A DNA stretch of 64,000 nt. It comes from Bacteroidota bacterium (lineage in GTDB: Bacteria; Bacteroidota; Bacteroidia; UKL13-3). Numbering within the stretch: position 1 is the first letter of the stretch; each line of letters starts with the position of its first letter. The DNA lies in NCBI GenBank assembly GCA_947460345.1, contig CANHGM010000015.1:1-64000 (forward strand). The letters are read 5' to 3'. A program made the translations under genes and the position numbers. A model generated the notes under the pieces. That model saw only the letters and a list, made by a program, of their open reading frames with translations. It ran no database searches and was not told the DNA's origin. Below, in pieces: positions 6,197-64,000 of the stretch.

Positions 6197-7140
6197 ACTT
6201 AACAAAACTATATATATTTTTTGTATATATATTTTTCTCTTGTACTATCACATCACAATCTGTAGTTTTAGATACTGATGCCGAAAAATATATGGCAAAT
6301 AGATTTGAAAAAATCACTTCAAAACTATTAGACTCATTGATTTCAGGACGTTTAAAAATAGATACCCTAGAAGTTAAAGAATTAAACATAGATCCTATTA
6401 AAAAAGAGTTCTCAGGTAAATATATATATTCAAAAAATTCTTATTCATCTATATTTTTAGAGGAATCATTTATTATAGATCCGAAAAATGTCTCTTTAAT
6501 TTGTAGATTTTCTGGAGATTTTATAGAAAATGATTGGAGCAATTTAAACAGCCTAAAACTAGGATGTGTGAATATAAAAAATAAAAACAAAGTAGATATA
6601 ATATTAACAACCATAGGGTTTAACAAATTTAACAAAACACTTTCAGAAGAAGACAAACAGATACTCAATTGGTATATAAATTATAAAGGTTTGTTTAGAA
6701 AAAACATATCATCATCGCCATGTTATATAGACTTACATGAGTTTAAAGAATATGGAAATTATATAATTTTTAACTTAAATTTAAGGCTTAGAAATTTTAT
6801 TTTAAATGGAAGATTAAGCACTTACAACAAACCAATATATATATATACCAAACATAATGGTTTAAGTATCTTAAAAACTGATACTATTGAAAGTATTTGG
6901 AACTATCAAATTCAACAATTCAAAACAGATACTTCTGTTAAAAGTGCATTTGTAATACAAGCTGATGGTGAGAAAAAATACTTTTGTGTATCTCCTACAC
7001 TAGCATTTGTTTTTAAAAATGCACTAGTAAAATCAACGCCCATTTATGATGGCTTTGTTATTTATGAAGACTTTAAACAATATATGAGTGAATCTGAAAT
7101 ATATATATTATGGAATGTGTATAAAAGTATTTATAATTAA
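6193..7140 (+). CDS. unknown exported protein coupled to the CNNM transporter
   Basis: A 315-residue protein with a Sec signal peptide of about 22 residues (ending TITSQ). Its ATG overlaps the stop of the CNNM transporter gene. The mature part has alternating hydrophobic and polar residues typical of beta structure and a duplicated-looking pattern: an Asp/Leu-rich N-terminal half (DTLEVKELNIDPIKKEF) and a Tyr-rich second half. I recognise no family. The tight coupling suggests that it acts with the transporter, perhaps as a periplasmic partner, but this is inference. The gene is unusually full of TATATA hexamers (eight separate sites). Confidence 0.75.
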   Translation: MNLTKLYIFFVYIFFSCTITSQSVVLDTDAEKYMANRFEKITSKLLDSLISGRLKIDTLEVKELNIDPIKKEFSGKYIYSKNSYSSIFLEESFIIDPKNVSLICRFSGDFIENDWSNLNSLKLGCVNIKNKNKVDIILTTIGFNKFNKTLSEEDKQILNWYINYKGLFRKNISSSPCYIDLHEFKEYGNYIIFNLNLRLRNFILNGRLSTYNKPIYIYTKHNGLSILKTDTIESIWNYQIQQFKTDTSVKSAFVIQADGEKKYFCVSPTLAFVFKNALVKSTPIYDGFVIYEDFKQYMSESEIYILWNVYKSIYN

Positions 7141-9242: not shown

Positions 9243-11228
9243 ATGACGAAAAAAAATTCTTTGAGAATTAGTGCTTTCATTGCACTATTTGGGTTACTTT
9301 TTCTTTACGGATGTGGGGGTGGAAACAGTTTTGAGAAGGCAAAAAAATACGAGGATGCAAAAAAATATTTTGATGCTTCACAGATATATAAGAAAATATA
9401 TAGTTCAAGCAAGGATAAAAACGAAAAGGCACTTGCAGCTATTAAAGCTTCTGAAACTTTTAAGCAAGTAGGTAATATTAAAGAAGCTGACAAGTGGTTA
9501 AACAATGCTATCAAGCAAAATTCTACAGCACCTGAAGTAAACTTAATGAAAGCTAAAGTATTTATTTACAACGAACTATATACTGACGCTTTAAAATCGT
9601 TAAATGACTATAAAAAAGAAAGTAAAAATGATACTATGGGCGATTATTTAACAGGAGTTGCTACCAATGGTTTGAAGTGGAAAAAAGAAAAATCGAAATA
9701 TATAGTTGAAAATTTAAAGGTAATAAACACCAAGTTCTTTGATTTTGCACCGGCTGTGTTCAAAAAAGATTTAATGATTTTTACTAGTGACAGAGAAGGT
9801 GGTATCAATAAAACCCCATATAGTTGGACAGGATATACTTTTAGTGATTTTTACAAATCAGAAAGAAACAAAAAAACAGGAAATTGGGGTTCACCTATAC
9901 TTATCAAAGACAAGTTAAATACTAAGTTTAACGATGGTTCAGGGAACTTTGACTCAAAGGGCGTGTTCTATTGTACACAATGTAATGGCAAAAAAGGCGA
10001 AGGAATGCATTGCAATATTTACCAAACAGAATTAAAAAACAAAGATTGGGATGAGCCTGAATTGTTGCCATTCAATAATGATAGCTTATATGACTGTAGC
10101 CAACCTTGCCCTACCCCTGATGGTCAAATCTTATTTTTTAGTAGCAATATGCCAGGCGGAATTGGGGGACATGATATTTGGTTTGTTACCTATTCTAAAA
10201 AGTCTAAAACATGGAGCGACCCTATTAATGCCGGACCTGCTATAAACACACCAAAAGACGAAGTATACCCTTGGATACATAACGATGGAACTATGTTCTT
10301 TTCATCAAATGGAAAAAATGGAATGGGTGGTATGGATATATACAGTGCAATAGGACAAGGAAAAGATTGGAGTGAAGTTAAAAATATGAAAGCCCCAATA
10401 AACAGTGGTGCTGACGACTTTGCTTTTAGCTGTGACGATAGAAAAGAATCAGGTTTTTTAACCTCTAACAGAGTAGGCGGAAAAGGTAATGACGATATAT
10501 ATACCTTTAAAATGGCTCCTCTTGAAATTTGTTTGGTTGGAACAATTACTGATTGTAAAACCAATGAACCATTAGCAAACGCTATTGTGACAGTTACCAA
10601 CAGTATTGACACTAGTAGAATTATTCTAAAAACTGATGCTAAAGGTGGGTATAAAACCAAATGCAATTTGAAACCAAATGCTGAGTATAGTGTATATGCA
10701 CAAAAAAGAGAAGATTACTATTTTGACTCAAAAGTATTTGACATTTCTACCATGGGTATTGAAGTATCTACTACACTTAGACAAGACATGTGTTTGAAAC
10801 AAATTGATATTAAGGAAGTATTTACAGTAAAAGGAATTTTATATGATTTAGATAGAGCTGAAATAAGACCAGATGCTGCTCTTATTTTAGATTCATTGGT
10901 TTTAGTTATGAAAAAATATGCTAAAATAACTATTGAATTAGGATCACATACCGACTGTAGAGCTAGTTATGTGTATAATATTGATTTGTCACAACGCAGG
11001 GCTGATTCAGCAGTTGCATATATAATTAACCATGGCATAGACAAAGAACGTTTAACAGCTCGTGGATATGGAGAAACACAATTGGTAAATGATTGTGCTT
11101 GTGAGGGCGAAAAAGAACCAAAAGGTGGCAAACATGCTCCATTTGAACCTTGTAGCGAAGACTTGCACCAGTTGAACAGAAGAACTACAGTTAAAGTAAC
11201 TGGAATGAACTATATATCTAAGAAATAA
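9243..11228 (+). CDS. PorE-like OmpA lipoprotein (TPR, PD40 propeller, CRD, OmpA)
   Basis: A 661-residue outer-membrane lipoprotein, lipobox FLYGC with Cys24. The domain order is TPR-like helices (about 28-165), a PD40/WD40-like beta-propeller (about 165-430, repeats such as ILFFSSNMPGGIGGHDIW and MFFSSNGKNGMGGMDIY), a carboxypeptidase-regulatory-like beta-sandwich (about 430-510) and an OmpA_C peptidoglycan-binding domain (about 530-655). The OmpA Asp and Arg are visible in GSHTDCRAS and SQRRADSA. This order is that of PorE, a component of the T9SS that anchors to peptidoglycan. Related OmpA/PD40 proteins sit beside PorP/SprF genes, and none is seen here, so the exact role is uncertain. Two cysteine-rich insertions (CTQCNGKKGEGMHC and DCACEG) are unusual. 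The next gene starts 19 bases downstream. Confidence 0.85.
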   Translation: MTKKNSLRISAFIALFGLLFLYGCGGGNSFEKAKKYEDAKKYFDASQIYKKIYSSSKDKNEKALAAIKASETFKQVGNIKEADKWLNNAIKQNSTAPEVNLMKAKVFIYNELYTDALKSLNDYKKESKNDTMGDYLTGVATNGLKWKKEKSKYIVENLKVINTKFFDFAPAVFKKDLMIFTSDREGGINKTPYSWTGYTFSDFYKSERNKKTGNWGSPILIKDKLNTKFNDGSGNFDSKGVFYCTQCNGKKGEGMHCNIYQTELKNKDWDEPELLPFNNDSLYDCSQPCPTPDGQILFFSSNMPGGIGGHDIWFVTYSKKSKTWSDPINAGPAINTPKDEVYPWIHNDGTMFFSSNGKNGMGGMDIYSAIGQGKDWSEVKNMKAPINSGADDFAFSCDDRKESGFLTSNRVGGKGNDDIYTFKMAPLEICLVGTITDCKTNEPLANAIVTVTNSIDTSRIILKTDAKGGYKTKCNLKPNAEYSVYAQKREDYYFDSKVFDISTMGIEVSTTLRQDMCLKQIDIKEVFTVKGILYDLDRAEIRPDAALILDSLVLVMKKYAKITIELGSHTDCRASYVYNIDLSQRRADSAVAYIINHGIDKERLTARGYGETQLVNDCACEGEKEPKGGKHAPFEPCSEDLHQLNRRTTVKVTGMNYISKK

Positions 11229-23045: not shown

Positions 23046-24914
23046 TTGAAATTTGTTTTTAAATATTTAAAATACCTATATACAATTTGTTTAATATATA
23101 TTATCTCAATTGGTAATAGTCAGGATATTGGAAAATTTGATATTGAACGTAAAACAACATTTCAGAATATTACCGGAAGCTTAAAACCATTAGGTGAGTT
23201 TAGTTTACAAGACACTGCTGATATTCCTATATATCATATGCAGCCGTTGCCTTTAAATAAAGAAAATTGCGAAGGCGATTCAAACGAGTTAAAACAACTT
23301 ATTTCACAAAAAAAACAATATTACCAAAATCAACACAACACTAAAGATATATATACATTAACAGTTGCACCTCCTGAAGTTACTAAGACATTTCTTGCAC
23401 AACCTGCATCTTCCCAATTTACTCCAAACGACAATAGTTTAGCTGTTAGCAATAGTGGATATATCTTAAGCTGTATCAATTCAAGTTTTTATGTATTTGA
23501 TACACTGGGTGTAAATTTAAAAAAAGGAAGTTTCAATACCATTATAAAAATTGCTTCATTAGTAGGTGGTTTTTTTTACGACCCACGAGCTATATACGAC
23601 CCTATCACTGATAGGTTTTATATGGTTGTTTTATATGGTCAAAGTCCTTCAAACTCAAGCTTGATTTTATGTGTAAGTCAAAGTAATAATCCTTCTAATT
23701 TATGGAATGTATATGAATTTATAGGCGGATTCGGAAGTAATGATTTGTGGGTAGATTATCCGCAAGTAGGAATATCAAACAATGAGATTTTTATCACAGG
23801 GAATTTATTTGATGCATCAAATGTTTTCAAAAAATCTGTGATTCTTCAAATAAATAAAAGTGAAGCAATACAAGGCCAATCAATAAGTTTCAAAACATGG
23901 ATAGATATAGGCGGCAATCCTTTTAGTTTAAGTCCTGCAACGCCTGCATCGGTTGACCAATTTAATCAAAAAATGTTTTTTGTATGTAATGATGCAGTAG
24001 GAGGAAATAAATTATATATATATACTATAAACGAAAATCAAAAAAACAACCCATCTATAAACCGAACTGAAATTATTTTTAATAAGTATAACAAAGCACC
24101 TGACGCATATCAAAAAGGCTCAAACGATAAACTAGATCAAGGTGGATGTAGAATAAAAAATGCCTATTTAAAAGATGGACTAATACACACGGTATTTAGT
24201 AAATCATCAAGCACTGGTTTTGGATCAGTAGTATATGCTAGAATAGACATGGATAATTATTTATTCGAAACCAAAGAGTATAATGAGAGTGGTGTAGATT
24301 TGGCTTTCCCTTCAGTTGCACCAGCTAGCAATAAAAAGAATAATAAACTTGCATATATATATGTATTAGCATCGAGCAATGAAAGGTATCCAGAAAGCAG
24401 GGTTTTGTTATTTGATCAAAACATGAACTCCTCATCAACTCAAGTAATCAAACAAGGAGAAGGCTATGTGGATGCACTCACAGGAAATGAAAGGTGGGGA
24501 GATTATACAACTATTTTAAAAACATATGAAACCACTAAAGTTTCATTATGGAGCTCAGGAAGTTTTGGTACACTCAATCATAAATTAGGAAATATTGTTT
24601 CTTATTTTAATATAGAAAAGGATTCTGCATACTTATTTTCTGAACAATTTAACATTGAAATTTGGCCCAATCCTGTTGAAAATTATCTGAATATAAAATA
24701 TGAAATACCCTATTCGGTTTCGTTACAAGTAGATTTGGTGAGTATGAATGGCGTTCTTTATAGCGAACTGGATTTAATAAAAGAACTACGAAGTATCAAC
24801 TTAGTAAAGACATATAGAATACAAGATTTTTCCCCCGGTATATATCTATTAAATATTCACTCAGGTAAAGAAGTTTTAGCAAAAAAAAAGTTGGTTATTT
24901 TACCCACTAAATAA
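23046..24914 (+). CDS. secreted protein with T9SS type A sorting domain
   Basis: A 622-residue secreted protein. Residues 1 to about 25 form a signal peptide (ending GNSQ). The body (about 90-520) resembles a beta-propeller-like exported protein: repeated aromatic strands such as VGGFFYDPRAIYDPITDRFYM and DLWVDYPQVGISNNEIFI. The last 80-90 residues are a T9SS CTD, with IEIWPNPVENYLNI, a middle strand and the ending DFSPGIYLLNIHSGKEVLAKK. It is therefore cargo for the type IX system. The start is a TTG at 23046, the only one in reach of the signal peptide. No enzymatic motif is recognised. Confidence 0.85.
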   Translation: MKFVFKYLKYLYTICLIYIISIGNSQDIGKFDIERKTTFQNITGSLKPLGEFSLQDTADIPIYHMQPLPLNKENCEGDSNELKQLISQKKQYYQNQHNTKDIYTLTVAPPEVTKTFLAQPASSQFTPNDNSLAVSNSGYILSCINSSFYVFDTLGVNLKKGSFNTIIKIASLVGGFFYDPRAIYDPITDRFYMVVLYGQSPSNSSLILCVSQSNNPSNLWNVYEFIGGFGSNDLWVDYPQVGISNNEIFITGNLFDASNVFKKSVILQINKSEAIQGQSISFKTWIDIGGNPFSLSPATPASVDQFNQKMFFVCNDAVGGNKLYIYTINENQKNNPSINRTEIIFNKYNKAPDAYQKGSNDKLDQGGCRIKNAYLKDGLIHTVFSKSSSTGFGSVVYARIDMDNYLFETKEYNESGVDLAFPSVAPASNKKNNKLAYIYVLASSNERYPESRVLLFDQNMNSSSTQVIKQGEGYVDALTGNERWGDYTTILKTYETTKVSLWSSGSFGTLNHKLGNIVSYFNIEKDSAYLFSEQFNIEIWPNPVENYLNIKYEIPYSVSLQVDLVSMNGVLYSELDLIKELRSINLVKTYRIQDFSPGIYLLNIHSGKEVLAKKKLVILPTK

Positions 24915-28709: not shown

Positions 28710-29588
28710 ATGAATAATAATCACATGAAAAAAACAATTTTACTTTCATTTTTAACAGGAGCTGTTTGGTTAACTTTTGAAACTTTTAGTGCCATTTCAA
28801 ATGCGGGCGGGCCTCCACTAGGCAAAACTGGTGCTCCAGGAGAAGGATTATGCACAGAGTGCCATGCTGACAATGCTGTAAACTCTGGAAGTGCTGAAGT
28901 TAAAACAGACTACACTTATAATGGATCAAATGATACTACTTATAATCCAGATTTAGGAGCTAATTCTTATCAAACATTTTCTACTTTAGTTGAAACTGGA
29001 AGTGCTTCAACTGGGATAGAAATGACTATGGTAGATGAAAAAGGAAACGGAGCAGGAGAATTTAGTCCTAATAACACAAACAAAACAGCAGTAGGACTTA
29101 GCAACGGTAGAAGTTATTTTTATCACATCAAAAAAGCAAATCAAAACGCAGGTGCTAATGACTGGGGTGCAACATGGACTCCGCCAACAACCAACAAAGG
29201 TGTATTAACTCTATATACTGCATACAATGGTTCAGATGATGATGGAACTAGCAGTGGTGATTTTATTTACACTACTTCAAAGAAAATTTATCTTTCTCCA
29301 GATTTTAGTGGCGTAGAATGGCAAAAAAACAATGCTATGAAATTAGCAGTTTTCCCAACAACTGTTTCTAACGAAATTAATTTTAATTACACAAATACCA
29401 AAGACCAACAAATTGCTATTGAACTTATTGACATAAATGGAAACAAAGTTCATACGTTTATGAATATGAATCAACACCAAGGCGAAAACAACCTTAAATT
29501 TGACATGCCTAAAGTTGCAAGTGGTTTGTATTTTGTGAAAATTACAGCAGGGGCTCAACAAACTACTAAGAAAGTGTTTGTATTGTAG
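28710..29588 (+). CDS. choice-of-anchor V secreted protein with a CxxCH motif and T9SS sorting domain
   Basis: A 292-residue secreted protein. The signal peptide is followed by GGPPLGKTGAPGEGLCTECH at residues about 33-52, the typical start of a choice-of-anchor V domain. The CTECH is a CxxCH c-type heme attachment motif. A beta-rich domain (about 55-210) contains conserved NGRSYFYHI and GVLTLYTAYNGSD. The last 75-80 residues are a T9SS CTD, with KLAVFPTTVSNEINF, IELIDINGNKV and ASGLYFVKI. The protein should be exported to the surface by the type IX system. Heme binding is inferred from the motif; a second axial ligand is not assigned. The Met at codon 6 is an alternative start. Confidence 0.88.
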   Translation: MNNNHMKKTILLSFLTGAVWLTFETFSAISNAGGPPLGKTGAPGEGLCTECHADNAVNSGSAEVKTDYTYNGSNDTTYNPDLGANSYQTFSTLVETGSASTGIEMTMVDEKGNGAGEFSPNNTNKTAVGLSNGRSYFYHIKKANQNAGANDWGATWTPPTTNKGVLTLYTAYNGSDDDGTSSGDFIYTTSKKIYLSPDFSGVEWQKNNAMKLAVFPTTVSNEINFNYTNTKDQQIAIELIDINGNKVHTFMNMNQHQGENNLKFDMPKVASGLYFVKITAGAQQTTKKVFVL

Positions 29589-50387: not shown

Positions 50388-53300
50388 TTAATATTTTATC
50401 AATCTTATTTGGTATAGTTGCTCATTATAACTAAATCTTAATATATATATACCAGCAGCTTGCGAGGTTAAATCTAGGTTGTATATATTTTTATCATTTT
50501 GTAATATGTTAACATAAATTTCTCTACCCGCAATATCTGTTATGTTATACATTTTCACCTCTGCACTTTTTGGCATCTCTATATTAAACATACCATTTGA
50601 TGGGTTAGGATATACATTGATAAAGCTAAAGTCTTCAATAGAATTTACCCCAATAAACCAGGTAATTTTTCTCACCACTGATTTGCCTTTACATCCATTG
50701 GCATCAGTCACTTCTACAAAATAATCTCCATTTTGAGTAGGCGAATATACTTGGCTATTTGCACCCGGTATAATAGCGTTATTCAAATACCATTGATATG
50801 AATTAAATGATGATGAAGATATCTCTTTAGTTACATTGTTAATGGTAATATTAGGCAACGGAAGAGGTTTCACGCTTATTGTCACTGATGGTGAGTTGGT
50901 CAAACAACCATTTAAGTCTTTAATTTGTGCTATATAATTGCCCGCTTGTTTCACGTTTATTGGATTAGCAATAGTATTCATTCCTGAGCCATTTAACAAC
51001 CATTTTAAAGTACTTATACCTGTGGTATTGCTAGCAGATAAATCTACTGAATCTCCCGCACAAAGTGTAGTACTACCAGATGGAGTGATAAGCGAAGTAG
51101 AGCCTGCATTTACAGTTAAATTCACTTTATTAAATGACTCAGATGCACAACCATTGCTGTTAGTTACTTCAGCTGTATATGCTCCATTATTTTTAATAAA
51201 TATAAACGAATCGTTTGCATTAGATATATAATTTCCATTAAACTTCCATTTATAGCTAAACACTCCTGTATCTAGTGGCGACACACTGATTCTGATACTA
51301 TCACCTGAACATAATTTAGAGAATTTATTTCCATTTAACAATGGTGGTGTAGGCTTGTCTTTGTATTTAATATCAATAGGTGAAGAGATATTTACGCATC
51401 CATTATTATTAGTTATGGTAACGGTATAAGAGCCATTGGCTAAAACCAAAATAGTATTGGTAGTTGCCCCTGCTATTACATTGCCACTTTCTTTCCATAT
51501 ATAACTATATGTTGGTTTGCTAATAGCGGTTATATATACAGTATCAGAGCCACAAGCTTGTGTGTTTCCAGCAAAACTAATATTGGTATTTGGCAACGAA
51601 TCAATCAAAATATTAGCATTATTCGAAATGGTTTTACATCCATTGTTATTGGTAACTTCTACTTGATATGCACCCGTAGTTTTCACATAAAATATAGAAT
51701 CAGATGCACCGCTTATCAACGAACTGTTTTTAAACCATCTATAGGTAAGTCCGGCTGTGGCATTGGCTCTTAGTTTCAAGCTATCTCCCATACATTTAAT
51801 TCCATTGCCTATATATGTAATCGGTGAAGTTGGATTGGTGTTTATAATGATGCTATCCGTATTTGACACACCGCTACAACCAGTAATAGTATCAGTAATT
51901 ATTAATTGATACTTGCCAGTGGTTTTCACATAAAACATCGAATCTTTTGCACCGCTAATGTTTAAAGCATTTTTAGACCATTGGAATTTAATAGCTGTTG
52001 AAGATGAACTAGAACTTAGTTTAATACTGTCTCCTAGACAGGCCGCACCTGTTCCTACATGACTAATAGAAGTAGTTGGTAATGCATTAAATGTGATAGA
52101 AACATTATTTGATGTTGAATTACATCCTGTAGAGTTATTTGATATATATACACTAAATGTTCCAGTGTAGTTGGTATAATATATAGAGTCAGTTGCAGCA
52201 TTGATATCACTGCCATTTAACTTCCATTGATAACTTAAACCTGATAAAGGATTCGAACTTAATTTTAAACTATCGCCTATACATTTATTACTACTTCCTA
52301 TATAAGTTACATTAGCAGTTGGGTTGGCATTAATTGTAAAGCCGACAATTGCTGAGGTAGTAGCACATCCAGTGGCAGTATCGGTTACGATCACTTTATA
52401 GTTTCCAGTTGATTTGGCGTAGTATATAGAATCAGTTGCACCATTAATATTGGTACCATTTAGTACCCACTGATAGGTGAGTCCTGATATTGGATTAGAG
52501 CTCATTTTAAGGCTATCTCCAGCACACTTGGCAGGTGAACCTATATAACTTATAGTAACACTTGGTGAATTGTTAAATATAATATTTACACTATTAGAAG
52601 TAGCGTTACAAGTTGTTGATGTTTGAGTGATGATTACTTTATATGTTCCAGCAGATTTGGCATAGTATATAGAGTCTGATGCCCCATTGATATTAGAGCC
52701 ATTTAATACCCATTGATAACTTAATCCAGACGCTGGGTTTGAACTTAATTTCAAACTATCGCCTGTACATTTTTTACCATTTCCTATAAAGCTCACATTT
52801 GCTGATGGTGGATTGTTAAAGGTGATATTTACTCCAGCTGATGTATTAGAACAACCAGTGACGGTGTCTGTTATCAATACCTTATAACTTCCACTAATTT
52901 TTGCATAGTATATAGAGTCTTTAGCTCCACTTATATTACTTGCATTTATTATCCATTGGTATTTTAAACCAGATGATTGGTTTGAACTTAGTTTTAAACT
53001 ATCGCCAGCACATTTACTGTTACTTCCCACAAAACTTATGGCAGAAGTTGGCAAAGAGTTAAAGTTGATATTTGAAGTTGATGACGTTGATTTACATCCC
53101 GAAGAAATCTGTGTAATAATTACTTGATAACTTCCTGCAGCTTTAGCATAATATATAGAGTCGGTTGCACTGCCTATATTACTACCATTAAACACCCATT
53201 GATAAGATAAACCTGTGACAGGGTTAGAGCTTAATTTCAAGCTATCGCCAGCACATTTTTTACCATTGCCTATATAAGAAATATTGGCTGTTGGTGGATT

Positions 53301-56300
53301 GTTAAATGTGATGTTAACACTTGCAGAAGTAGCAGCACAACCAGAGGCTGAGTCGGTCACTAAAACTTTATATGTACCAGATGTTTTAGCAAAATACAAA
53401 GAATCTTTAGCTCCGCTGATATTACCAGCGTTTAGTATCCATTGGTATTTTAAACCTGACGATGGATTAGAACTTAATTTTAAACTATCGCCCACACATT
53501 TATTGTTGCTACCCACAAAACCAATAGAGGCAGTTGGTAAAGCATTAAATGAGATATTGACAGTGCTTGAGGTGTTGCCACATCCAGAAGCAGTATCAGT
53601 GATGATTACTTTATATGCTCCTGATGTTTTAGCATAGTATATAGAATCTTTGGCACCCGCAATATTGCTGCCGTTTAACACCCATTGATAGATTAAACCT
53701 GCGGCATTGTTTGAACTTAATTTCAAACTATCACCCACACACTTGTTGTTACTACCTATATATGAAATATTAGCAGTTGGTAAAGAGTTGAAAGTGATGT
53801 TTACTCCAGCAGAAGTAGAAGAACAATTGGTGGCCGAATCAGTTATAATAATTCTATAAGTGCCTGTTGTTTTAGAATAGTATATAGAATCTTTAGCATT
53901 GGTAATATTACTACCATTCAATACCCATTGATATTTTAATCCCGAAGTAGGGTTAGAACTTAACTTCAAGCTATCGCCTACACATTTTTTGCCATTTCCA
54001 ACAAAGCTTATAGAAACAGATTGAGCATTGCCTATGGTAATAGTAGCATTGTTAGAAACAGAGAAACAACCTGTAGTAGTATCGGTAATGGTTACTCTAT
54101 AAGAACCAGAGTTTTTCGCATAGAATAAAGAATCTTTAGCCCCGCTGATATTGCTACCATTTAAAGCCCATTGGTAAGACAAACCCGAGTTGGTATTAGA
54201 ACTGAGTTTTAAACTATCGCCAGCACATTTAAATCCATTGCCTATATATGTTATATTAGCAGTAGGATTGCTGTTAATAGTAAAGTTAAGACTGCTAGAT
54301 GTACTTGCACAACCAGTAGTACTGTCAGTTACAATTACCTTATAAGCACCAGTTGATTTTGCATAGTAAATTGAATCTTTTGCACCTGTGATATTACCGC
54401 CATTTAATACCCATTGATATTTTAAACCAGATGCATTATTGGTGCTTAATTTCAAACTGTCACCTGCACATTTTTTTGCATTGCCTATATAAGAAATATT
54501 AGCAGTTGGAGAGGTGCTTATAGATATAGATGTGATGCTTGAAAGTGTGGCACAATTTGCTACTGTATCTGTTACATATAATGTATAATTACCCGCATTT
54601 TTAGCATAATATATTGAGTCTTTTGCGTTGGTTATATTGGTACCATTATATATCCATTGATATTTGCAACTAGCCACTTTTGTTATACTCAACTTTGAAC
54701 TATCACCACTACAAATGGCTGACTTGCTCACAGCAAATGTAGCTGATGGAGCAGTTTTAACATTTAATGTAACGGTATCAGTATAAGCTGAACAACTAGA
54801 TGCATTGCTTATCACACAGTAATAAGTGCCTGCCAATTTTGCATATAATATAGAATCTGTTTTAGAGCTCATCAAAGTATTATTATAATACCATTGATAT
54901 GCTGTAACATTCTTACTATTTTTTGCTGAGAATTTAGCTGAGTCGTTGCTACATATTGTGGTATTGTTTTTAACTAATGCCGATGGAATTGGCATATTAG
55001 CCACTCTCGTCACATTGTTTAAAGTATCATTCAATCTGTTTTGATCGTTTTGCCAATATATGTATGGTCTGAATGTATATGTTCCATAACCTGACATGTC
55101 AAACGCATTGGTAATAGTCACATCTATTGAATCGCTAGGATAAAAAGTTTGATTTGTAACTTTGGCCGGACCATAGGTAACAATACCTCCAAGTGGGTCG
55201 GTAACTTTAGCATATACAAATGCAGTATCATTAGTTAACACAATTGTATCATTTCCAAGATTGGCAATTTTAACTTTAATAGTTTGATTATATCCTCCTA
55301 AACAAGTGGCTGTAACTGGTGCTAACAAACTAGTAACTGCAAAGTCTTTTTTACTAATAAAATAATATTCATCAGCACCCATATCAGGCGGCGTTTGATG
55401 TAATTCTAAATCTATGTCTTTTGGTATCATACCTGAAAGATTTTCACCGTTGAGATTAGTAACAGTAATATGTAAATCGGTAGGAGAAGTAAACTTTGGA
55501 TTTATATTTAATGACCCAATTCCACCACCACCAGAAGCAAATGCAGTATTGAGATTGCTAGAGGCATTAAAGGTTGATCCAAACATGATACCCAAAGTTG
55601 GGTTGCCTGCTAATGCCGAATAATAATCGTTATACCCAATAGAATCGTAATAAGTTGTAGAAGTTCCAGCAGCTATTTCAAATGGTATAGCAGAAGTAGC
55701 GGTAGCCGGACTTACTACAAATATATTGTTTTTGATTCTGTTTTTTGAGCCATATATACCACTCACATAAAAAGCTCTGTTAGCTCCTGAGGTGTTGGCA
55801 TCCATATTAAAGGTATTGTGATAAAAATTCCAAGGAGTTAAGTTACTGTTACTATAAAATGCATAACACACATTGGCACCAGTAGCTCTAAATCCGCCTC
55901 CAATCATATTGTTGTAAAAGGTGTTTTGTGGAGTAGATGCACCATTTAAAAGTACTGTGCTAAAGTATAAACCATATTGACCGGCATTGATAATTTTATT
56001 GTTGTTAAATTCTAGATTATAACCATTTATATTCGAATAACAAGATTGAAAATAGCCACCATAAGAATTTACAGAGCCTAATCTTCTCATCGAAATATTA
56101 TTGTTTCTAACTTTAAATGGCATGTTGTATATATATAAGCCATAATAATAACTGCTGTCGATAATGTTGTTGTTTATATATATAAATTTAATTGAATTAG
56201 TAGTACCTGAAGAAGCAATTCCATAATATCCACCAGAGATATAACAACTATCTACAGATATTTGGTCGTTGATGCCACTAGTAGTTGTGATATTTGTATT

Positions 56301-59300
56301 GCTTCCATTAATCACCACAGGCACTAAACTACCACTTGCTGACGTTGCACCTGAACCTGCAACTTGAATATTGCAATTAGATATTTTAAAATTCACTGCA
56401 TCTTTTACGTGTAAAGTCCAACCATAGTTAAAGTCAGTAGACTTAATGGTTAAGTTTTTAATGGTTATAAAACTGCTGTTATCAAAACGAAGCGTATATT
56501 GTTTAGTAGAGTTTGCTGTATAAGTTACTATTCTGTTTGATGCATTAATACCATCTATAGTTATAGTATTGGTAGATGAAGTACCTGTGATATTAGTAAA
56601 TGCAGCTTGTTCATTATACGTGCCTGCAGCTACTGATATATATACTGGAGCATTTACAATACCACAACCAAAAAAGGCAGCGGCTTCATTAAAACTAACA
56701 AAATTTGTAACACCTGAACCAGCAGGGTCTATAGTATAATTTCCACCAATAAAAAACGGAAAACTTTGTGTGATTCCATCGTTTAAAGGGTCGTTGTCTG
56801 TATTTCCATTTGGAAGTGTAGAATATGCATATATACTTAAACAAGAATTTACAGTTGGGCTAGTGTTAAACAATATCGACATAGTGTCGCAAGTGTTTAA
56901 TGAAACACCCGTTACAGATTGAGAAACAACAGAACCTCCATTTACCACATAATTTACAGTAAAAGAAGTCACCGTATTTTTACCAAAATTTTTAACTCTC
57001 ACCCTAATAGGAACTGAGCCAAAAGCAAAACCAATACTTGGTGTTATAAAAGCATCTATACCAATATTGTCTGTTACTAAATTACTATCATATAATTCAT
57101 CTGCACCAATGTTTGGAGGCATATTTCTAGTTTCGCCATCAAAATCTTTAGTGATACCTAAGGTAGAAGCTCCTCTCATACAGTTAAATCTGTTGTGCAA
57201 ATTTGTAGCAGATTTAAATTGTGGATTTTCATTTACTGAACCTATTCCACCACCAGATGGGTATGCAGTTGACACATTCGTATTGGTTATATATGTAGTA
57301 CCAATTTGAACTAAATTTGGTCTTGGGATACTCGAGTAATAATCGTTATGTGTTAACGTATCAACAAATATTGAATTGCCAATTTCTAAAGGTATACCAG
57401 TGCCAGATGCAGTTCCTGTTATAGCAAAAATATTGTTCCTGATTTTAATTCTTGTTCCTGATGACATCGCAAATGCCCTTATACCACCAGTAGAATTAGC
57501 ATCCATGTTAAATGAATTGTGATATATATCCCAAGGGAAGAAAGTAGATGCACTATAAAAAGCATAAGCATTTCCTGTCGTAACAGAAAATCCTCCACCA
57601 ATCATATTGTTATGAAACTTATTGGCAGGTATAGCAGTTGATGAAGAACTATAAACACCTGAAAAATACACCCCATATGTACCTGCATCAGTTACTATGT
57701 TGTTACTAAATTCTAGGTAATTACCATTAGTAGCAGTACAGTTAGCAAAATAGCAACCTGTAGAAGAAGGTAAATTATATCTTCTCATTCTAATGGTATT
57801 ATTGATCACTTTAAACTGTCCTTGTTGAAAATATATACCATAATAGTAACTGCTGTCTATGGTTGAATTATATATATTAAAATATTTACCAGATGATTGT
57901 GAAGCATATACAGCCACACCATAATAACCTCCTGTTATTTTACAACTATCTATAGTGATACTGTCTGTTCTGGTGCTATTGGATGAGAAATTAGTATTGC
58001 TACCGTTAATTAATATTGTTGCCAAATTCCCACTTGTTGAGGTAGCTGCTGCACCGTCCATTTTAATTATACAATTTGATACATTACACGCAATAGCATC
58101 TTTAAAATGTACTGTCCAACCATAGTTAGTATTTAATGATGAAATGGTCAAGTTTTTTAGGGTTGTATATTTTGTTCCATTTAGTCTAAATGTATAAGGA
58201 CTTGTTGAAACAGTTGCACTATAAGTTAGAATTCTGGTTGCCGCATTTCCACTGCCACCATTAAAAGTAATGGTATTGGTAGGTGACGCCCCAGCTATAT
58301 TTAACAAAATTGGCTGTTCGTTATATGTGCCTTGTTTCACATCAAAATATGCTGGGCAAGTAATACCTCCCACGTTAAGTAATGAAGTAGCACTTCCAAA
58401 ACTCACAAAGTTGGTTAATGATGCTGCCGAACTGTTGTCTATGGTATAATTGCCACAAAGGGCAGCTGCCATAGTAACTGGGGCTAAGGTATCATTCATT
58501 ATTTGTCCATCTGTAGATCCATTTGGAGAATCAGTATATGCTTTTATACTATACAATGTATTGGCTACAAAAGTTAAAGCATTTGCACCTGAGAACGTTA
58601 CAGATGTGGTTGCACTAGATGCTAAAGAACCAGTCCAAGCAACAGTAATCGGACTACCACCGTTTACCGAGTAGCTTACATTAGCAGCAGTAACTGTATT
58701 ATTTCCAAAGTTTTTTAATGTTACTGTTATATCTTTTGAACCAGGAACAAATGGAGGCGTAGGAGCAGTAATGGCAGTAATTCCTATATCGTTAGGCACT
58801 GCAGGCATTTCATATGCACCAGCATCGGTAGAAGCACTTCTGTTGGTTCCATCATAATCTTTGCTTACACTTGAAATAATAGGCATATTAAAAGAAGGAT
58901 CGGCCACGTGTAAGTCAGTATTTGAATAAAATATAGGATTGCCTATCATAGAATTGGTGTTGTATAAACCATAATTAATCAAATTTGCTGGGGTTAGATA
59001 TGTACCTGTTACATATGCAATGGGTGAAGAAGATGTGGCACCAGCAAAATAATATAAGTTGTAATTAAACGAATCTTTATTAATCACCGCATAGTTGAAT
59101 CCGTTTGGTAAATAAAACAAATTTGCGGTAGAGTTGGGATTGGTAATAGCCATGATATTATTTCTTACATTCAATAATGTAGAACCAGTAGTACAACAGT
59201 TACCGAAATAGATACATGCTCCTTGAGTTCCTGTTGCTGCATTGTCTAAATTGATAGAATTGTGATATACATTCCAAGCATAAGAGGAACTTTGGAAATA

Positions 59301-62300
59301 TATACCTACTGGGTCATTACCTCTGAACCCCCCACCAATCTGATTGTTAAGCATATTTCCTCTATTGGAAGTGAATGCAGATGTAGAAGATAAAAATATA
59401 CCGTACTGACCCGCATCTGTAATTTTATTACGAGATATTGACCATGTATTTGATGACAAAAATGCACTACAAGAACCTATATATAACCCATAACTTGAGG
59501 TTAAATTGGAATTCATATCAATGATGTTTCGGTCTACAATACTTGCATTTAATCCATATAAAAATATTCCATATTGATAAGCATTGTTACAAGTATTTCC
59601 AGTAAATACATTGTTACTATCTGCAGAAACATTAATACTATAAACCATTATATTGGTATAACCGCCATTAATGGTATTTGAATCAATATATATATTTGAA
59701 AAATAACCTTGAGTTGAATAAGAAGTAGTACTACCACTTAAAACAATTCCCATATAATTAGTACTATTAAAATTTGAAACAGGGGTAGAACCAAAGTCAA
59801 TTATACAATTTTTAATAGTATCAAACTTACAACCTACATTCCCAACTAACTGAACTGGCCAAGCATTTCCGCTGGTACCTCGTATGGTTAAATTTTTAAA
59901 AGATATATAACTAAGGTTATTGATTCTAATGGTAAAAGGCAAAGAACTATTACCTGAAGCTTGCACAATTCTGGTAGCAGCATTTCCTTGGCCACCATCA
60001 AAAGTAAGGGTATTTGTAGCTGACAAACCAGCAATATTAGTTAAATCAACTTGGCCAGTATAGGTGCCTGTAGCTACTGAAAAATACACTGGTCCTGAAA
60101 TTCCACCACATGATGTAATGGCATTTACTGCAGCTGTAAAAGATTGAAAATTTGTAGTGCTAGACGGCAAACTTGCATCGATAGTAAAGTTACCACTTAC
60201 ACCACCTGTACATATACTTTTACCTAAAGTATCATTGTTTTTATTATTATCTGTTGCACCATTTGGACTGTCTGAAAAAACTTTTAAGAAATGCAAGCCA
60301 GACGTAACATTTAGTTGTTTGGCTCCACTAAAAACAATTTGTAAGGTATCACAAGGGTTTATACTTGTAGCAAAAGAAGAACTTACTGCAGCATTTGCAT
60401 CAAATTTATAACTTACATTACCAGAGCTAATGGTGTTATTACCAACATTTTTAATAGTTACAACTACATTTTGTAATCCTGTAGAAATAGAACCCGAAGG
60501 AGCTCTGATGGCTATAACAGCTAGATTGTTTGATAAACTTGTATATTCATACGCTCCAATATTAGGAATGGTAGCTCTTGATAATCCATTATAGTCTGTT
60601 GTGATGCCAGTTCCGTTCAATCCAAGTATACATCCATCTCCTAAACTTAAATCAGTTGGTTCTGATACAAAATTGACTTGTTGACTTTTAGCACTTCCTG
60701 CTGCAGTATTGTTTTGTGTGTTTACATTAGCTTTCCAAGTTGCTAAATTATTATATATTGCTCCATTCCAATAAACCAAATTAGATCCAGTAGTATAATA
60801 CACATTATAATCAATTGCATTATTTGATAAAGAGTTGGAGCTGCCTGAAACCAAAGTATAAGCGCCATTTACACAATAAAATATATTATTCTGAATATTA
60901 AGCGATGAGTTTGAAGATATATATATAGCACCGCAATTTGTGTTTGTTAAAGAAGATTGATTATAACAAGTATTATGATACACATCAATATTATTTCCCG
61001 ATTGCATATATATAGGGTAAGAATTATACGAACCTGAATTACATATAATCACATTATTATATACTTTTACACGCGTTGCTGCAGAACCACCACCTGAAAC
61101 TGATCCACCAAAATATATACCATAGCCATTATTAATTCCTGTAATTTTATTACCTGATATTTGAACTGCGTTTCCCGCATTATTTAAATACATGCCATAA
61201 TAAGTTGATGCAGAAGAAGCATTAAATATATTATTAATCACTTTCAAACTATCAGATTGTGTTGCATATATAGCATAATTATACTGGTTATTAAAAGTGT
61301 TTCCACTAAAATATGGGCGTTGAATTCTATTGTTAGGATTTGAATAAAAACCAAATCCACTTGCATTAAAAGTACAACCTATAAAACTATTGAAATTATT
61401 AACCGAAGATTGTTCGAATATATGATAGTTTGATGTTGCTTGTGTGCTATTAAAAATACATCCATTAAAGGTATTTCTATCTGAGCCCCCTGCAAGTTCC
61501 ATATTTCTTGCTCCACCTAAAGTACTAGTTAAAAAACTTATATTATTAAATGTAGTATAATCAACACCTGCCATTTGTAACGTATATATAGTGCTGCTAG
61601 AGCCTTGCAAAATACACTGAGAAGCATTTCCTGATGCCGATGAAAATGTAATGGTATTAGTTGATGAATTACCGGAGATGCTAGCTAAACTTATACTTTC
61701 ATTATAGGTTCCATTTGAAACAGTAAATGTTACAGGACCACTAATGCCTCCGCAGTTTAATTGGTTAGCTGCTGCTGTAAAAGTTTGAAAATTTGTTGAA
61801 GATGCGGCTAGAGAAGGATTGATTGTATAAGCACCTGACATTTGAGTACACAAACTCACATTTATTGTATCGTTTGAGGGGAATGAATCACTTGCTAGTG
61901 ATGTATATACTTTTACATTATTTGAGCCATTTACAATGGATATATTAGTTGTAAATGTTATTGTTGCAGTATCACATTGGTTAAGGGCTGGACTAAAATT
62001 AAATGTTTCAGTAACTAAACCTCCACCATTATTAGAATAGCTAACAGATAATGAAGAAATAGTTGAAGAGCCATAGTTTTTGATAACTACTTTTAAAGGT
62101 TTAGATCCAGTAGTTATTGGAGAGCTAGGAGAAGATATATACATGACACCAGCATCTTTAGATGGAGATGTAGAACTTTCATCAGCACCTATATCTGGAA
62201 TTGAAGCTCTTGATTGATTATCAATATCTGTAGTGACTCCCAAGTTAGCTCCATTGTTACAAACTCCAGTGATATGATAATCACTATTGCTAACAAAATT

Positions 62301-64000
62301 AGGGTTAAAGCTAAATGAATTGACCCCACCACCACTTGGATATGCTGCATTAAAATTAGAAGCATTATATGCTGTACCAACTATTTTTAACAATGAAGTA
62401 CCAGTAGTATTGTAATATATATTGTTATTTAAATTGCTAACAGTAGTACTACCTTCAATTTGAACAGGTACTAAGTTGTTTGAGGTACTTGAAATTATTG
62501 CAAAAATATTATTTCTTAAATCATTTCCGCTATTCACATTTTGCTGGTAAAAACATATAGAACCAGCATTGGTATTGTTTGCAATTACAAATGTATTGTT
62601 ATAATATTTATATTGTCCTGAGGTAGAATTTACACCATATACTGCTCCTGAACTATAAAAATTACCACCGATAATATTATTATATACCTCACCTAAACTA
62701 GCACCATTGCCTCCATTAGCTGTTTGAGTATATATTCCGTAAGTTCCAACATTGTTAATATAGTTTCCTTTAATTTCATGTTGGGTTCCACCTGAACCAT
62801 TCGCATTTGAATTGATTAGGTTAATACCTGAAGAGTTTGTATTACTCGACCTGTTTTGAATATTATTATTAATAATTTTAACACTTTGACCGCTAGGTGC
62901 ATATATACTAGACATATATGCATTAGTAAAAGTATTATTTCTAAAATAGTTTATGTTTGATGTGTTACCTGCATAAGTAGCAATACCATAATACCCACTA
63001 ATAATATTGCAACTGTCTATATAATTATTATGACTACTTCCTGTAGTCCCCATTGATGTTGCACTTCCATTGATGACCACATTAGCAAGTTGCGAGTTGG
63101 TGCTACTATATGCTGAGCTAATAAACTCAAGTTTACATGAGCGCACTGTGTTATTATTTGCCGCTAATATATTAACGATCCAACCATAAGTAGGGTCAGA
63201 GCCGCTAATATTCATGTTTCTAAAATTTACATACTGACACCCATTAAAACGGAGTGTGTATGGCAATGAAGAGGTGCCAGCAGCAGTCAAAAAAGTACTA
63301 TTTGTACCTGAACCTACAAAAGTAATTGTATTAGTAGACGATGCTCCATTGATAGGTGGAATTGAAACTTGTTCATAGTAAGTATGACCAGAAACGGTGA
63401 AAACAACAGGCCCATTAATACCACCACAAGTTAAAAGATTTAACGCTGCTTTAAACGATTGAAAATTAGTTGAAGAAGCAGCAATAGATGAGTTAATGGT
63501 ATAATTTCCACTTATAGCACTACAATATGTGTTTTGTGCAGTATCATTTGTTTGGTCAACATCACCTGCTAAAGCTGTATATACTTTTAATATATTTGAA
63601 CCAGATACTAATGTAATATTATTAGTAAACGTAACTGATGCGGTATCACAAACAGTAAGGGATGGACTAAAATTAAATGTTTCAGAATCAACTGAATTAT
63701 TATTCAATTTGCAATAAACTTTTATACTTGAAACATTGTTGGTTCCATAGTTTTTAAGCAACACTTTCAATGGTTGAGACCCTAATGATACTGGATAAGA
63801 AGGAGAAATAATTTTAGCAACACCAATGTCTGAAGCTGCAATACCAGTAGGTTCATATGCACCCATTGAAGGTGGGTTTGGCCTGGTTGTGCCATCTAAA
63901 TCTATTGTAATTCCGGCAAGCCCACTTTGTCCTTTTAAACAAGAAGTATTATGGTGAAAATCGTTAGAAGAAGTAAAATTTATATTTCTATTTGATGAAT
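50388..64000 (-). CDS. giant T9SS-secreted beta-helix and Ig-like repeat surface protein (5' end beyond right edge)
   Basis: A continuous frame of at least 4,536 residues, partial at its N-terminus; an apparent Met at 63866 is an internal methionine, because the frame stays open to 64000 with matching module sequence. From N to C: the end of one module (63840-64000), five full modules of about 540-575 residues (about 55365-63840), one lone CARDB-like domain (about 55005-55355), 18 Ig-like repeats (about 50640-55000), and a T9SS CTD (50388-50630, INVYPNPSNGMFNIEMP and AAGIYILRF). Each module has a CARDB-like spacer, an opening such as SGNYTIDPAGSG, a right-handed beta-helix rich in Asn and aromatic residues (YYGIYF, YHNSFNMD) and a closing motif such as IPDIGADE. 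It is presumably a long surface filament or adhesin. The ligand is unknown. Confidence 0.93.
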   Translation of the reverse strand, partial: SSNRNINFTSSNDFHHNTSCLKGQSGLAGITIDLDGTTRPNPPSMGAYEPTGIAASDIGVAKIISPSYPVSLGSQPLKVLLKNYGTNNVSSIKVYCKLNNNSVDSETFNFSPSLTVCDTASVTFTNNITLVSGSNILKVYTALAGDVDQTNDTAQNTYCSAISGNYTINSSIAASSTNFQSFKAALNLLTCGGINGPVVFTVSGHTYYEQVSIPPINGASSTNTITFVGSGTNSTFLTAAGTSSLPYTLRFNGCQYVNFRNMNISGSDPTYGWIVNILAANNNTVRSCKLEFISSAYSSTNSQLANVVINGSATSMGTTGSSHNNYIDSCNIISGYYGIATYAGNTSNINYFRNNTFTNAYMSSIYAPSGQSVKIINNNIQNRSSNTNSSGINLINSNANGSGGTQHEIKGNYINNVGTYGIYTQTANGGNGASLGEVYNNIIGGNFYSSGAVYGVNSTSGQYKYYNNTFVIANNTNAGSICFYQQNVNSGNDLRNNIFAIISSTSNNLVPVQIEGSTTVSNLNNNIYYNTTGTSLLKIVGTAYNASNFNAAYPSGGGVNSFSFNPNFVSNSDYHITGVCNNGANLGVTTDIDNQSRASIPDIGADESSTSPSKDAGVMYISSPSSPITTGSKPLKVVIKNYGSSTISSLSVSYSNNGGGLVTETFNFSPALNQCDTATITFTTNISIVNGSNNVKVYTSLASDSFPSNDTINVSLCTQMSGAYTINPSLAASSTNFQTFTAAANQLNCGGISGPVTFTVSNGTYNESISLASISGNSSTNTITFSSASGNASQCILQGSSSTIYTLQMAGVDYTTFNNISFLTSTLGGARNMELAGGSDRNTFNGCIFNSTQATSNYHIFEQSSVNNFNSFIGCTFNASGFGFYSNPNNRIQRPYFSGNTFNNQYNYAIYATQSDSLKVINNIFNASSASTYYGMYLNNAGNAVQISGNKITGINNGYGIYFGGSVSGGGSAATRVKVYNNVIICNSGSYNSYPIYMQSGNNIDVYHNTCYNQSSLTNTNCGAIYISSNSSLNIQNNIFYCVNGAYTLVSGSSNSLSNNAIDYNVYYTTGSNLVYWNGAIYNNLATWKANVNTQNNTAAGSAKSQQVNFVSEPTDLSLGDGCILGLNGTGITTDYNGLSRATIPNIGAYEYTSLSNNLAVIAIRAPSGSISTGLQNVVVTIKNVGNNTISSGNVSYKFDANAAVSSSFATSINPCDTLQIVFSGAKQLNVTSGLHFLKVFSDSPNGATDNNKNNDTLGKSICTGGVSGNFTIDASLPSSTTNFQSFTAAVNAITSCGGISGPVYFSVATGTYTGQVDLTNIAGLSATNTLTFDGGQGNAATRIVQASGNSSLPFTIRINNLSYISFKNLTIRGTSGNAWPVQLVGNVGCKFDTIKNCIIDFGSTPVSNFNSTNYMGIVLSGSTTSYSTQGYFSNIYIDSNTINGGYTNIMVYSINVSADSNNVFTGNTCNNAYQYGIFLYGLNASIVDRNIIDMNSNLTSSYGLYIGSCSAFLSSNTWSISRNKITDAGQYGIFLSSTSAFTSNRGNMLNNQIGGGFRGNDPVGIYFQSSSYAWNVYHNSINLDNAATGTQGACIYFGNCCTTGSTLLNVRNNIMAITNPNSTANLFYLPNGFNYAVINKDSFNYNLYYFAGATSSSPIAYVTGTYLTPANLINYGLYNTNSMIGNPIFYSNTDLHVADPSFNMPIISSVSKDYDGTNRSASTDAGAYEMPAVPNDIGITAITAPTPPFVPGSKDITVTLKNFGNNTVTAANVSYSVNGGSPITVAWTGSLASSATTSVTFSGANALTFVANTLYSIKAYTDSPNGSTDGQIMNDTLAPVTMAAALCGNYTIDNSSAASLTNFVSFGSATSLLNVGGITCPAYFDVKQGTYNEQPILLNIAGASPTNTITFNGGSGNAATRILTYSATVSTSPYTFRLNGTKYTTLKNLTISSLNTNYGWTVHFKDAIACNVSNCIIKMDGAAATSTSGNLATILINGSNTNFSSNSTRTDSITIDSCKITGGYYGVAVYASQSSGKYFNIYNSTIDSSYYYGIYFQQGQFKVINNTIRMRRYNLPSSTGCYFANCTATNGNYLEFSNNIVTDAGTYGVYFSGVYSSSSTAIPANKFHNNMIGGGFSVTTGNAYAFYSASTFFPWDIYHNSFNMDANSTGGIRAFAMSSGTRIKIRNNIFAITGTASGTGIPLEIGNSIFVDTLTHNDYYSSIPRPNLVQIGTTYITNTNVSTAYPSGGGIGSVNENPQFKSATNLHNRFNCMRGASTLGITKDFDGETRNMPPNIGADELYDSNLVTDNIGIDAFITPSIGFAFGSVPIRVRVKNFGKNTVTSFTVNYVVNGGSVVSQSVTGVSLNTCDTMSILFNTSPTVNSCLSIYAYSTLPNGNTDNDPLNDGITQSFPFFIGGNYTIDPAGSGVTNFVSFNEAAAFFGCGIVNAPVYISVAAGTYNEQAAFTNITGTSSTNTITIDGINASNRIVTYTANSTKQYTLRFDNSSFITIKNLTIKSTDFNYGWTLHVKDAVNFKISNCNIQVAGSGATSASGSLVPVVINGSNTNITTTSGINDQISVDSCYISGGYYGIASSGTTNSIKFIYINNNIIDSSYYYGLYIYNMPFKVRNNNISMRRLGSVNSYGGYFQSCYSNINGYNLEFNNNKIINAGQYGLYFSTVLLNGASTPQNTFYNNMIGGGFRATGANVCYAFYSNSNLTPWNFYHNTFNMDANTSGANRAFYVSGIYGSKNRIKNNIFVVSPATATSAIPFEIAAGTSTTYYDSIGYNDYYSALAGNPTLGIMFGSTFNASSNLNTAFASGGGGIGSLNINPKFTSPTDLHITVTNLNGENLSGMIPKDIDLELHQTPPDMGADEYYFISKKDFAVTSLLAPVTATCLGGYNQTIKVKIANLGNDTIVLTNDTAFVYAKVTDPLGGIVTYGPAKVTNQTFYPSDSIDVTITNAFDMSGYGTYTFRPYIYWQNDQNRLNDTLNNVTRVANMPIPSALVKNNTTICSNDSAKFSAKNSKNVTAYQWYYNNTLMSSKTDSILYAKLAGTYYCVISNASSCSAYTDTVTLNVKTAPSATFAVSKSAICSGDSSKLSITKVASCKYQWIYNGTNITNAKDSIYYAKNAGNYTLYVTDTVANCATLSSITSISISTSPTANISYIGNAKKCAGDSLKLSTNNASGLKYQWVLNGGNITGAKDSIYYAKSTGAYKVIVTDSTTGCASTSSSLNFTINSNPTANITYIGNGFKCAGDSLKLSSNTNSGLSYQWALNGSNISGAKDSLFYAKNSGSYRVTITDTTTGCFSVSNNATITIGNAQSVSISFVGNGKKCVGDSLKLSSNPTSGLKYQWVLNGSNITNAKDSIYYSKTTGTYRIIITDSATNCSSTSAGVNITFNSLPTANISYIGSNNKCVGDSLKLSSNNAAGLIYQWVLNGSNIAGAKDSIYYAKTSGAYKVIITDTASGCGNTSSTVNISFNALPTASIGFVGSNNKCVGDSLKLSSNPSSGLKYQWILNAGNISGAKDSLYFAKTSGTYKVLVTDSASGCAATSASVNITFNNPPTANISYIGNGKKCAGDSLKLSSNPVTGLSYQWVFNGSNIGSATDSIYYAKAAGSYQVIITQISSGCKSTSSTSNINFNSLPTSAISFVGSNSKCAGDSLKLSSNQSSGLKYQWIINASNISGAKDSIYYAKISGSYKVLITDTVTGCSNTSAGVNITFNNPPSANVSFIGNGKKCTGDSLKLSSNPASGLSYQWVLNGSNINGASDSIYYAKSAGTYKVIITQTSTTCNATSNSVNIIFNNSPSVTISYIGSPAKCAGDSLKMSSNPISGLTYQWVLNGTNINGATDSIYYAKSTGNYKVIVTDTATGCATTSAIVGFTINANPTANVTYIGSSNKCIGDSLKLSSNPLSGLSYQWKLNGSDINAATDSIYYTNYTGTFSVYISNNSTGCNSTSNNVSITFNALPTTSISHVGTGAACLGDSIKLSSSSSSTAIKFQWSKNALNISGAKDSMFYVKTTGKYQLIITDTITGCSGVSNTDSIIINTNPTSPITYIGNGIKCMGDSLKLRANATAGLTYRWFKNSSLISGASDSIFYVKTTGAYQVEVTNNNGCKTISNNANILIDSLPNTNISFAGNTQACGSDTVYITAISKPTYSYIWKESGNVIAGATTNTILVLANGSYTVTITNNNGCVNISSPIDIKYKDKPTPPLLNGNKFSKLCSGDSIRISVSPLDTGVFSYKWKFNGNYISNANDSFIFIKNNGAYTAEVTNSNGCASESFNKVNLTVNAGSTSLITPSGSTTLCAGDSVDLSASNTTGISTLKWLLNGSGMNTIANPINVKQAGNYIAQIKDLNGCLTNSPSVTISVKPLPLPNITINNVTKEISSSSFNSYQWYLNNAIIPGANSQVYSPTQNGDYFVEVTDANGCKGKSVVRKITWFIGVNSIEDFSFINVYPNPSNGMFNIEMPKSAEVKMYNITDIAGREIYVNILQNDKNIYNLDLTSQAAGIYILRFSYNEQLYQIRLIKY
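50640..54990 (-). repeat. array of 18 Ig-like repeats in the giant protein
   Basis: Units of about 243 bases (81 residues). A typical unit reads KCAGDSLKLSSN...YQW...AKDSIYYAK..G.Y.V..TD...GC. The first 17 carry one Cys near the start and one near the end. The units at both ends are more divergent than those in the middle. Confidence 0.9.
52566..53537 (-). repeat. duplicated two-unit block in the Ig array
   Basis: Units 7-8 (53052-53537) and 9-10 (52566-53051) are each exactly 486 bases and align without gaps. Units 7 and 9 share KYQW(I)(L/I)NA(G/S)NISGAKDS, and units 8 and 10 share GLSYQWV(F/L)NGSNI and the rare IITQ. Confidence 0.8.
55365..64000 (-). repeat. tandem CARDB-like/beta-helix modules
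   Basis: Five full modules with approximate limits 63840-62185, 62180-60540, 60535-58805, 58800-57085 and 57080-55365, and the tail of a sixth at 63840-64000. Each opens with a DIGV/DAGV/NLAV-type CARDB start and ends with a GADE or GAYE motif. Confidence 0.88.

Follow-up and report, generated by a model that had tools for sequence, protein, structure and literature searches.

A 4,988-residue predicted T9SS cargo protein of a Bacteroidota bacterium combines six beta-helix and CARDB modules with an array of 18 Ig-like units

We analysed a 64,000-nt stretch of DNA (the window), which corresponds to positions 1-64000 of contig C15 (78,107 bp), from a 3.0-Mb, 99.3%-complete genome of a Bacteroidota bacterium. 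On the minus strand, positions 50388-64000 form a single open frame without internal stop, which continues past the window to an ATG start at C15:65354. The complete gene has 4,988 codons and encodes a protein (P0001) of 4,988 aa and 528 kDa. A previous reading made from the letters of the window (the sequence-only reading) had described an unbroken minus-strand frame of at least 4,536 codons whose 5' end was still to be obtained; the frame is indeed unbroken, and its 5' end lies on the same contig. The features of the gene, all on the minus strand and numbered as in the window unless C15 is given, are as follows.

50388..64000 (-), the part within the window of the 4,988-codon gene, which continues to C15:65354 outside the window (open frame and contig sequence)
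C15:65259-65354 (-), outside the window, signal-peptide-like N-terminus (read by eye)
63513..64000 (-), module 1, C-terminal ~160 aa (entire module C15:63513-65255; module comparison)
61839..63512 (-), module 2, beta-helix and CARDB-like Ig (module comparison)
60198..61838 (-), module 3, beta-helix and CARDB-like Ig (module comparison)
58458..60197 (-), module 4, beta-helix and CARDB (CARDB profile over cut-off)
56748..58457 (-), module 5, beta-helix (aa 2300-2753) and CARDB-like Ig (aa 2754-2869) (AlphaFold2 model)
55014..56747 (-), module 6, beta-helix (aa 2870-3329) and CARDB-like Ig (aa 3330-3447) (module comparison)
50643..54989 (-), 18-unit Ig-like array, aa 3456-4904 (unit count and Ig_7 profile)
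51594..54509 (-), Ig units 3-14 within that array (best outside matches)
50391..50615 (-), T9SS type A C-terminal sorting domain, aa 4914-4988 (PF18962 and TIGR04183 over cut-off)

Over this stretch the other five frames carry 228-560 stops each, against 0 in the giant's own frame, in which the longest exact repeat is 27 nt and N bases are absent. With these values, chance and repeat-driven mis-assembly both fail as explanations of the frame. The sequence-only reading had named a mis-assembly of several genes as the outcome that would overturn it, and contigs of this genome do end within such genes: contig C1 ends inside a related giant and C15 itself begins inside a module protein. However, the same architecture has been assembled independently in other genomes, including a gapless pair of 6,028/6,028 aa described below, and we consider it extremely unlikely that several genes were joined in this MAG.

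The N-terminal part of the protein consists of exactly six modules of 547-581 aa, with pairwise identities of 29-43%, each composed of a helix part (431-468 aa) followed by a CARDB-like Ig part (113-118 aa). The window contains modules 2-6 in full but of module 1 only the C-terminal ~160 residues. Since module 1 begins at residue 34, right after the signal-like N-terminus, the earlier estimate of "six or more beta-helix modules" stands as to the modules and is now closed at six. The CARDB profile PF07705 scores 25.6 bits on module 4, above its cut-off of 22.7, and is below cut-off or unlisted for the other modules. Pfam Beta_helix stays below cut-off in all six modules (best score 22.9 bits, 25.9 required), and the helix region of one module shows a weak, below cut-off likeness to the NCBIfam 'choice-of-anchor Q' domain. 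The assignment as beta-helix comes instead from AlphaFold: a model of module 5 built with 74 sequences predicts, with high confidence, a right-handed beta-helix followed by an Ig domain (pLDDT 93.8, pTM 0.90). This model also has a fold match to the PF1109 CARDB domain (3idu) with a TM-score of 0.61-0.63 on the target. A two-module model (mean pLDDT 88.2) is confident within domains, while its pTM of 0.61 indicates that the prediction leaves the angle from one module to the next undefined. Of the "rod-and-stalk fibre" proposed from the sequence, a string of beads on a stalk is supported; a rigid rod is not shown.

The helix part of module 5 finds its best fold matches among carbohydrate-active beta-helices, namely lacto-N-biosidase, phage tailspikes, pectin methylesterase and the AlgE/AlgG epimerases, as would suit a multi-headed polysaccharide-degrading enzyme in which every helix has a lyase or glycosidase activity like that of pectate lyases or GH136. 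These matches have low TM-scores on the query (about 0.2-0.4), however, and the helix body shows no conserved set of acids, whether pair or triad, across 89 and 74 modules. The invariant residues are mainly the ladder Asn, Gly and the caps, and the strongly conserved charged residues sit in the GTYNEQ end of the N-terminal cap (consensus sGxYTINxxxxxxTNFxSFxxAxxAL...GPVxFNVxxGTYNEQ) and in the C-terminal cap (D.DG..R..PD.GA.E, in which the pattern D.DG..R...G..E carries the charges). The lack of a conserved acid set favours a binding or structural role over a catalytic one; we rejected the assignment to beta-helix lyases or hydrolases and regard an enzymatic role as unlikely.

Downstream of the modules lie 18 Ig-like units of ~81 aa each, the number already counted by the sequence-only reading, and 17 of the 18 contain the canonical Cys pair. 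The Ig_7 profile PF19081 scores 153 bits over this region. The BiPBP_C profile (PF06832) also scores 97.6 bits, on Ig units only; we rejected a relationship to the C-terminus of penicillin-binding protein 1C, as the giant is without a transglycosylase or transpeptidase domain, and read the match as a shared Ig-like fold. The Ig array contains 42 copies of D[ST][AILVMT], a motif reported for O-glycosylation in Bacteroidota (PMC8550257), compared with 5.1 in shuffled sequences; the helices show no enrichment. The stalk may be glycosylated, although this is a lead only, because the copies fall at conserved positions of the Ig units and these repeats do not count as independent observations.

The strongest relative of solved structure is GhpA of Aureispira sp. 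CCB-QB1 (PDB 9flp), a 5,898-residue grappling hook protein reported to be a T9SS-secreted heptamer (PMC11205867, PMC13319060). Both proteins run to thousands of residues and carry a long array of Ig units of the same repeat type, and the whole-sequence E-value is 8e-139, with the best stretch at aa 3536-4726. An oligomeric, prey-catching fibre might be proposed from this likeness and the similar size. The match, however, lies wholly inside the Ig array, which belongs to a general repeat family (Ig_7): significant stretches are confined to aa 3495-4839, none of the six helix modules matches GhpA, and the module profile in turn does not find GhpA. We rejected whole-chain homology on these grounds, and a GhpA-like function seems improbable.

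The two ends of the protein suggest how it might be exported. The N-terminus, MEINYTTTLKRLTRYAFLFFLFLSLHIDLTA-QISG, has by eye the n-h-c pattern of a Sec signal peptide (aa 1-32). At the extreme C-terminus (aa 4914-4987) is a single Por_Secre_tail of T9SS type A, scoring 36.9 bits with PF18962 (cut-off 27) and 39 bits with TIGR04183 (cut-off 23), in agreement with the sorting domain claimed previously. The genome encodes SprA/Sov (2,452 bits), PorV (474 bits) and PorU (1,215 bits), all over cut-off. It also has a large cargo set, with 133 type A and 21 type B tail matches. Two further type A cargo genes are in the window, at 28710-29588 (+) and 23046-24914 (+), one of them with a choice-of-anchor V domain, and a PorE/OmpA-like gene at 9243-11228 (+) may be T9SS-associated (NF052230, 412 bits, cut-off 600). 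The genes adjoining the giant (PLD-like and UvrD-like helicase/nuclease) give no functional hint. Just beyond the window, at C15:65639-70294 (+) (L009, L060), lies a divergent neighbour of 1,552 aa with a Laminin_G_3 domain and a type B T9SS tail.

A known T9SS giant is SprB, the gliding adhesin of Flavobacterium johnsoniae (PMC10202324), and the sequence-only reading had pointed to it. In favour of a similar role, in which the T9SS/gliding motor would move our protein over the cell, SprB too is a surface-located T9SS protein of very large size, the genome encodes SprA and PorP/SprF-family proteins (on C6, C12, C13 and C35), and RemA is a type A cargo that takes part in gliding (PMC12618676). 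SprB, however, has a type B tail and a partner shuttle, SprF (PMC12618676), whereas the giant has a type A tail and contig C15 holds no PorP/SprF gene. The GldJ model scores 336 bits in this genome, short of its cut-off of 458, and placing RemA's type A tail on SprB yields a protein that is exposed at the surface but immobile (PMC12618676). The likeness to SprB-type gliding is thus unsupported. Membership of the SprB type, as judged by a TIGR04131 tail and an adjacent PorP/SprF gene, was rejected, and we consider a gliding adhesin very unlikely.

Type A tails are taken up by PorV, after which the cargo is statically anchored or released (PMC12618676). We propose that the giant is probably such a cargo, serving as a static, long-reach stalked adhesin, anchored or shed. 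Export and surface anchoring, the orientation of the stalk, adhesion and the ligand are inferred, the export steps from gene content and knowledge of the family. The putative N-terminal signal would direct the chain to Sec export; it would then pass the SprA/Sov translocon, with the type A tail picked up by the PorV shuttle, and the PorU sortase would remove the tail, leaving the protein attached to the outer surface or shed. By this route the giant very probably reaches the cell surface. Because the tail is C-terminal, in an anchored protein the 18 Ig units would form a cell-proximal stalk, with the six helix-Ig beads of the N-terminal part outermost and their long helix faces offered for binding to polysaccharide or to another surface. 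A beta-helix rises by ~0.5 nm per turn and an Ig domain spans ~4 nm; from these values the reach of the giant would, roughly, be of the order of 150 nm.

Such a protein could also be shed into the medium, where it would form part of an extracellular layer or a biofilm matrix. Release as well as anchoring is documented for type A cargo (PMC12618676), several paralogues occur within one genome, and the low dN/dS reported below suits a structural role. A stalk with outward heads is, however, more typical of an anchored protein, and we saw no lattice-forming domain; a matrix or coat protein is of low probability.

The giant is not unique, and its architecture is widely distributed. A profile search for the module, which the sequence-only reading had suggested, gave matches in 38 of the 40 genomes searched (our own and 39 relatives, which are Bacteroidota/Bacteroidia MAGs). 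Module-bearing frames of more than 5,000 aa (about 5,000-7,000) were present in 9 of 24 same-family genomes, our own included. Four genomes (G009, G014, G017 and G020) encode giants of 6,028-6,202 aa that resemble the window protein in the order of helix and CARDB modules, Ig units and T9SS tail, but that have nine modules and about 7-9 detected Ig units. Giants of roughly 8-10 modules with no recognised Ig units are found in G013, G022, G004, G016 and on our own contig C1, some of them with other sequence ahead of the tail. A wider collection scan, for which the pattern was taken from a two-module alignment (a six-module alignment being too divergent), added many Bacteroidota MAGs together with named strains of Chitinophaga, Niastella, Longitalea and Adhaeribacter. 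Frames of the first three genera (L089, L090, L093-L095, L097-L100 and L106; 2,820-4,102 aa) carry tandem helices of the same family joined by ~104-aa linkers; they differ from the giant in that the linker is missed by the CARDB model, few or no such Ig units are present and the tail model finds no tail.

The source genome itself has four or more module-bearing frames that exceed 2,000 aa. On contig C1 (genome G000), a module giant of 2,572 aa with 4 helices (L056, C1:212284-219999, minus strand) adjoins a frame of more than 5,055 aa with 8 helix matches that is ended by the contig edge (L057, C1:220729-235893, minus strand). At window 3-1250 (-), the contig edge likewise ends an N-terminal fragment of another GEVED and helix-module protein.

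The closest correspondence to the C-terminal plan of the giant is found in two shorter proteins, one from our own genome (C10:60265-66486, 2,074 aa) and one from G003 (C2:8543-14797, 2,085 aa). Both have 2 modules, 7 Ig units and a T9SS tail, and differ from the giant also in an N-terminal GEVED domain, which the giant is without. Their Ig1 and Ig2 are the best matches of stalk units 1 and 2 of the giant, their Ig4-7 correspond one to one to units 15-18, and their last CARDB and tail to CARDB6 and the tail. All twelve of units 3-14 find their best outside match in Ig3 of the C10 or the G003 protein, and Tandem Repeats Finder (TRF) reports a period of 243/486 nt over these units. The simplest reading of these matches is that a 7-unit stalk was lengthened by expansion of unit 3 to twelve copies; contraction in the other proteins would be less simple.

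A tree of 90 helix parts suggests that the six modules of the window protein are a mosaic of paralogues. Module 1 is closest to module 1 of the 2,572-aa C1 protein (75% identity) and module 2 to module 2 of the C10 protein; modules 3 and 4 are closest to modules 2 and 3 of the C1, G004 and G016 proteins, and modules 5 and 6 are each other's closest relatives. In the four nine-module giants, by comparison, modules group by position at 8 of the 9 positions and are not orthologous to those of the window protein. Module 5 of two of them (G009C1 and G020C7; L050, L052) clusters instead with modules from other giants, as though recombination had replaced it. Taken together, length appears to have changed through swaps of whole modules between paralogous giants and through multiplication of one Ig unit, and evolution would tune the length of the fibre by these means.

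No close orthologue of the window protein is present in the genomes examined, and selection was estimated from the orthologues of G009 and G020, two genomes of the same genus. These proteins are 6,028 aa each, 86% identical and align with 0 gaps; over the full length dN/dS is 0.074, and it is ~0.07 for each of helices, CARDB and Ig units, though local near-saturation of synonymous sites makes the ratio approximate. Purifying selection along the whole chain is clear in this pair. With dN/dS uniformly low, no diversifying binding face is seen in these relatives, which counts against the adhesin reading.

Among open-licence PMC papers on CARDB, beta-helix and T9SS or adhesin, the helix-CARDB-Ig architecture is not described. 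The giant proteins Giant1-4 of Apilactobacillus kunkeei, which are proposed adhesins, similarly have a long rod of repeats with a beta-solenoid at the N-terminal end (PMC12863079), but these belong to lactic acid bacteria and have alpha-helical repeats, one solenoid and no T9SS. The "distinct class" put forward in the sequence-only reading holds in part: the architecture recurs in the bacterial family and beyond and we found no paper on it, whereas T9SS surface proteins of giant size are already known (SprB, GhpA). As T9SS giants with Ig arrays are represented by GhpA, the helix-CARDB-Ig combination is a variant of such giants.

It is possible, though we hold this only tentatively, that these proteins form a broad and undescribed class of Bacteroidota fibres with helix-CARDB beads on an Ig stalk. 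Beads would be recombined between paralogous giants and one stalk unit expanded, setting length and binding range, whereas other genera would hold a nine-bead order for long periods, each bead having its own role (for example in successive contacts along one polysaccharide). The giants recur across the bacterial family and are under strong purifying selection where this can be tested. Stalks of 7 as against 18 Ig units, and fixed as against shuffled module orders, provide a natural system for the tuning of surface-fibre length and reach, and single modules, with their convenient size and high-confidence predictions, are directly open to ligand and structure work. The interest of the finding lies chiefly in this evolutionary modularity and in the ready testability of single modules.
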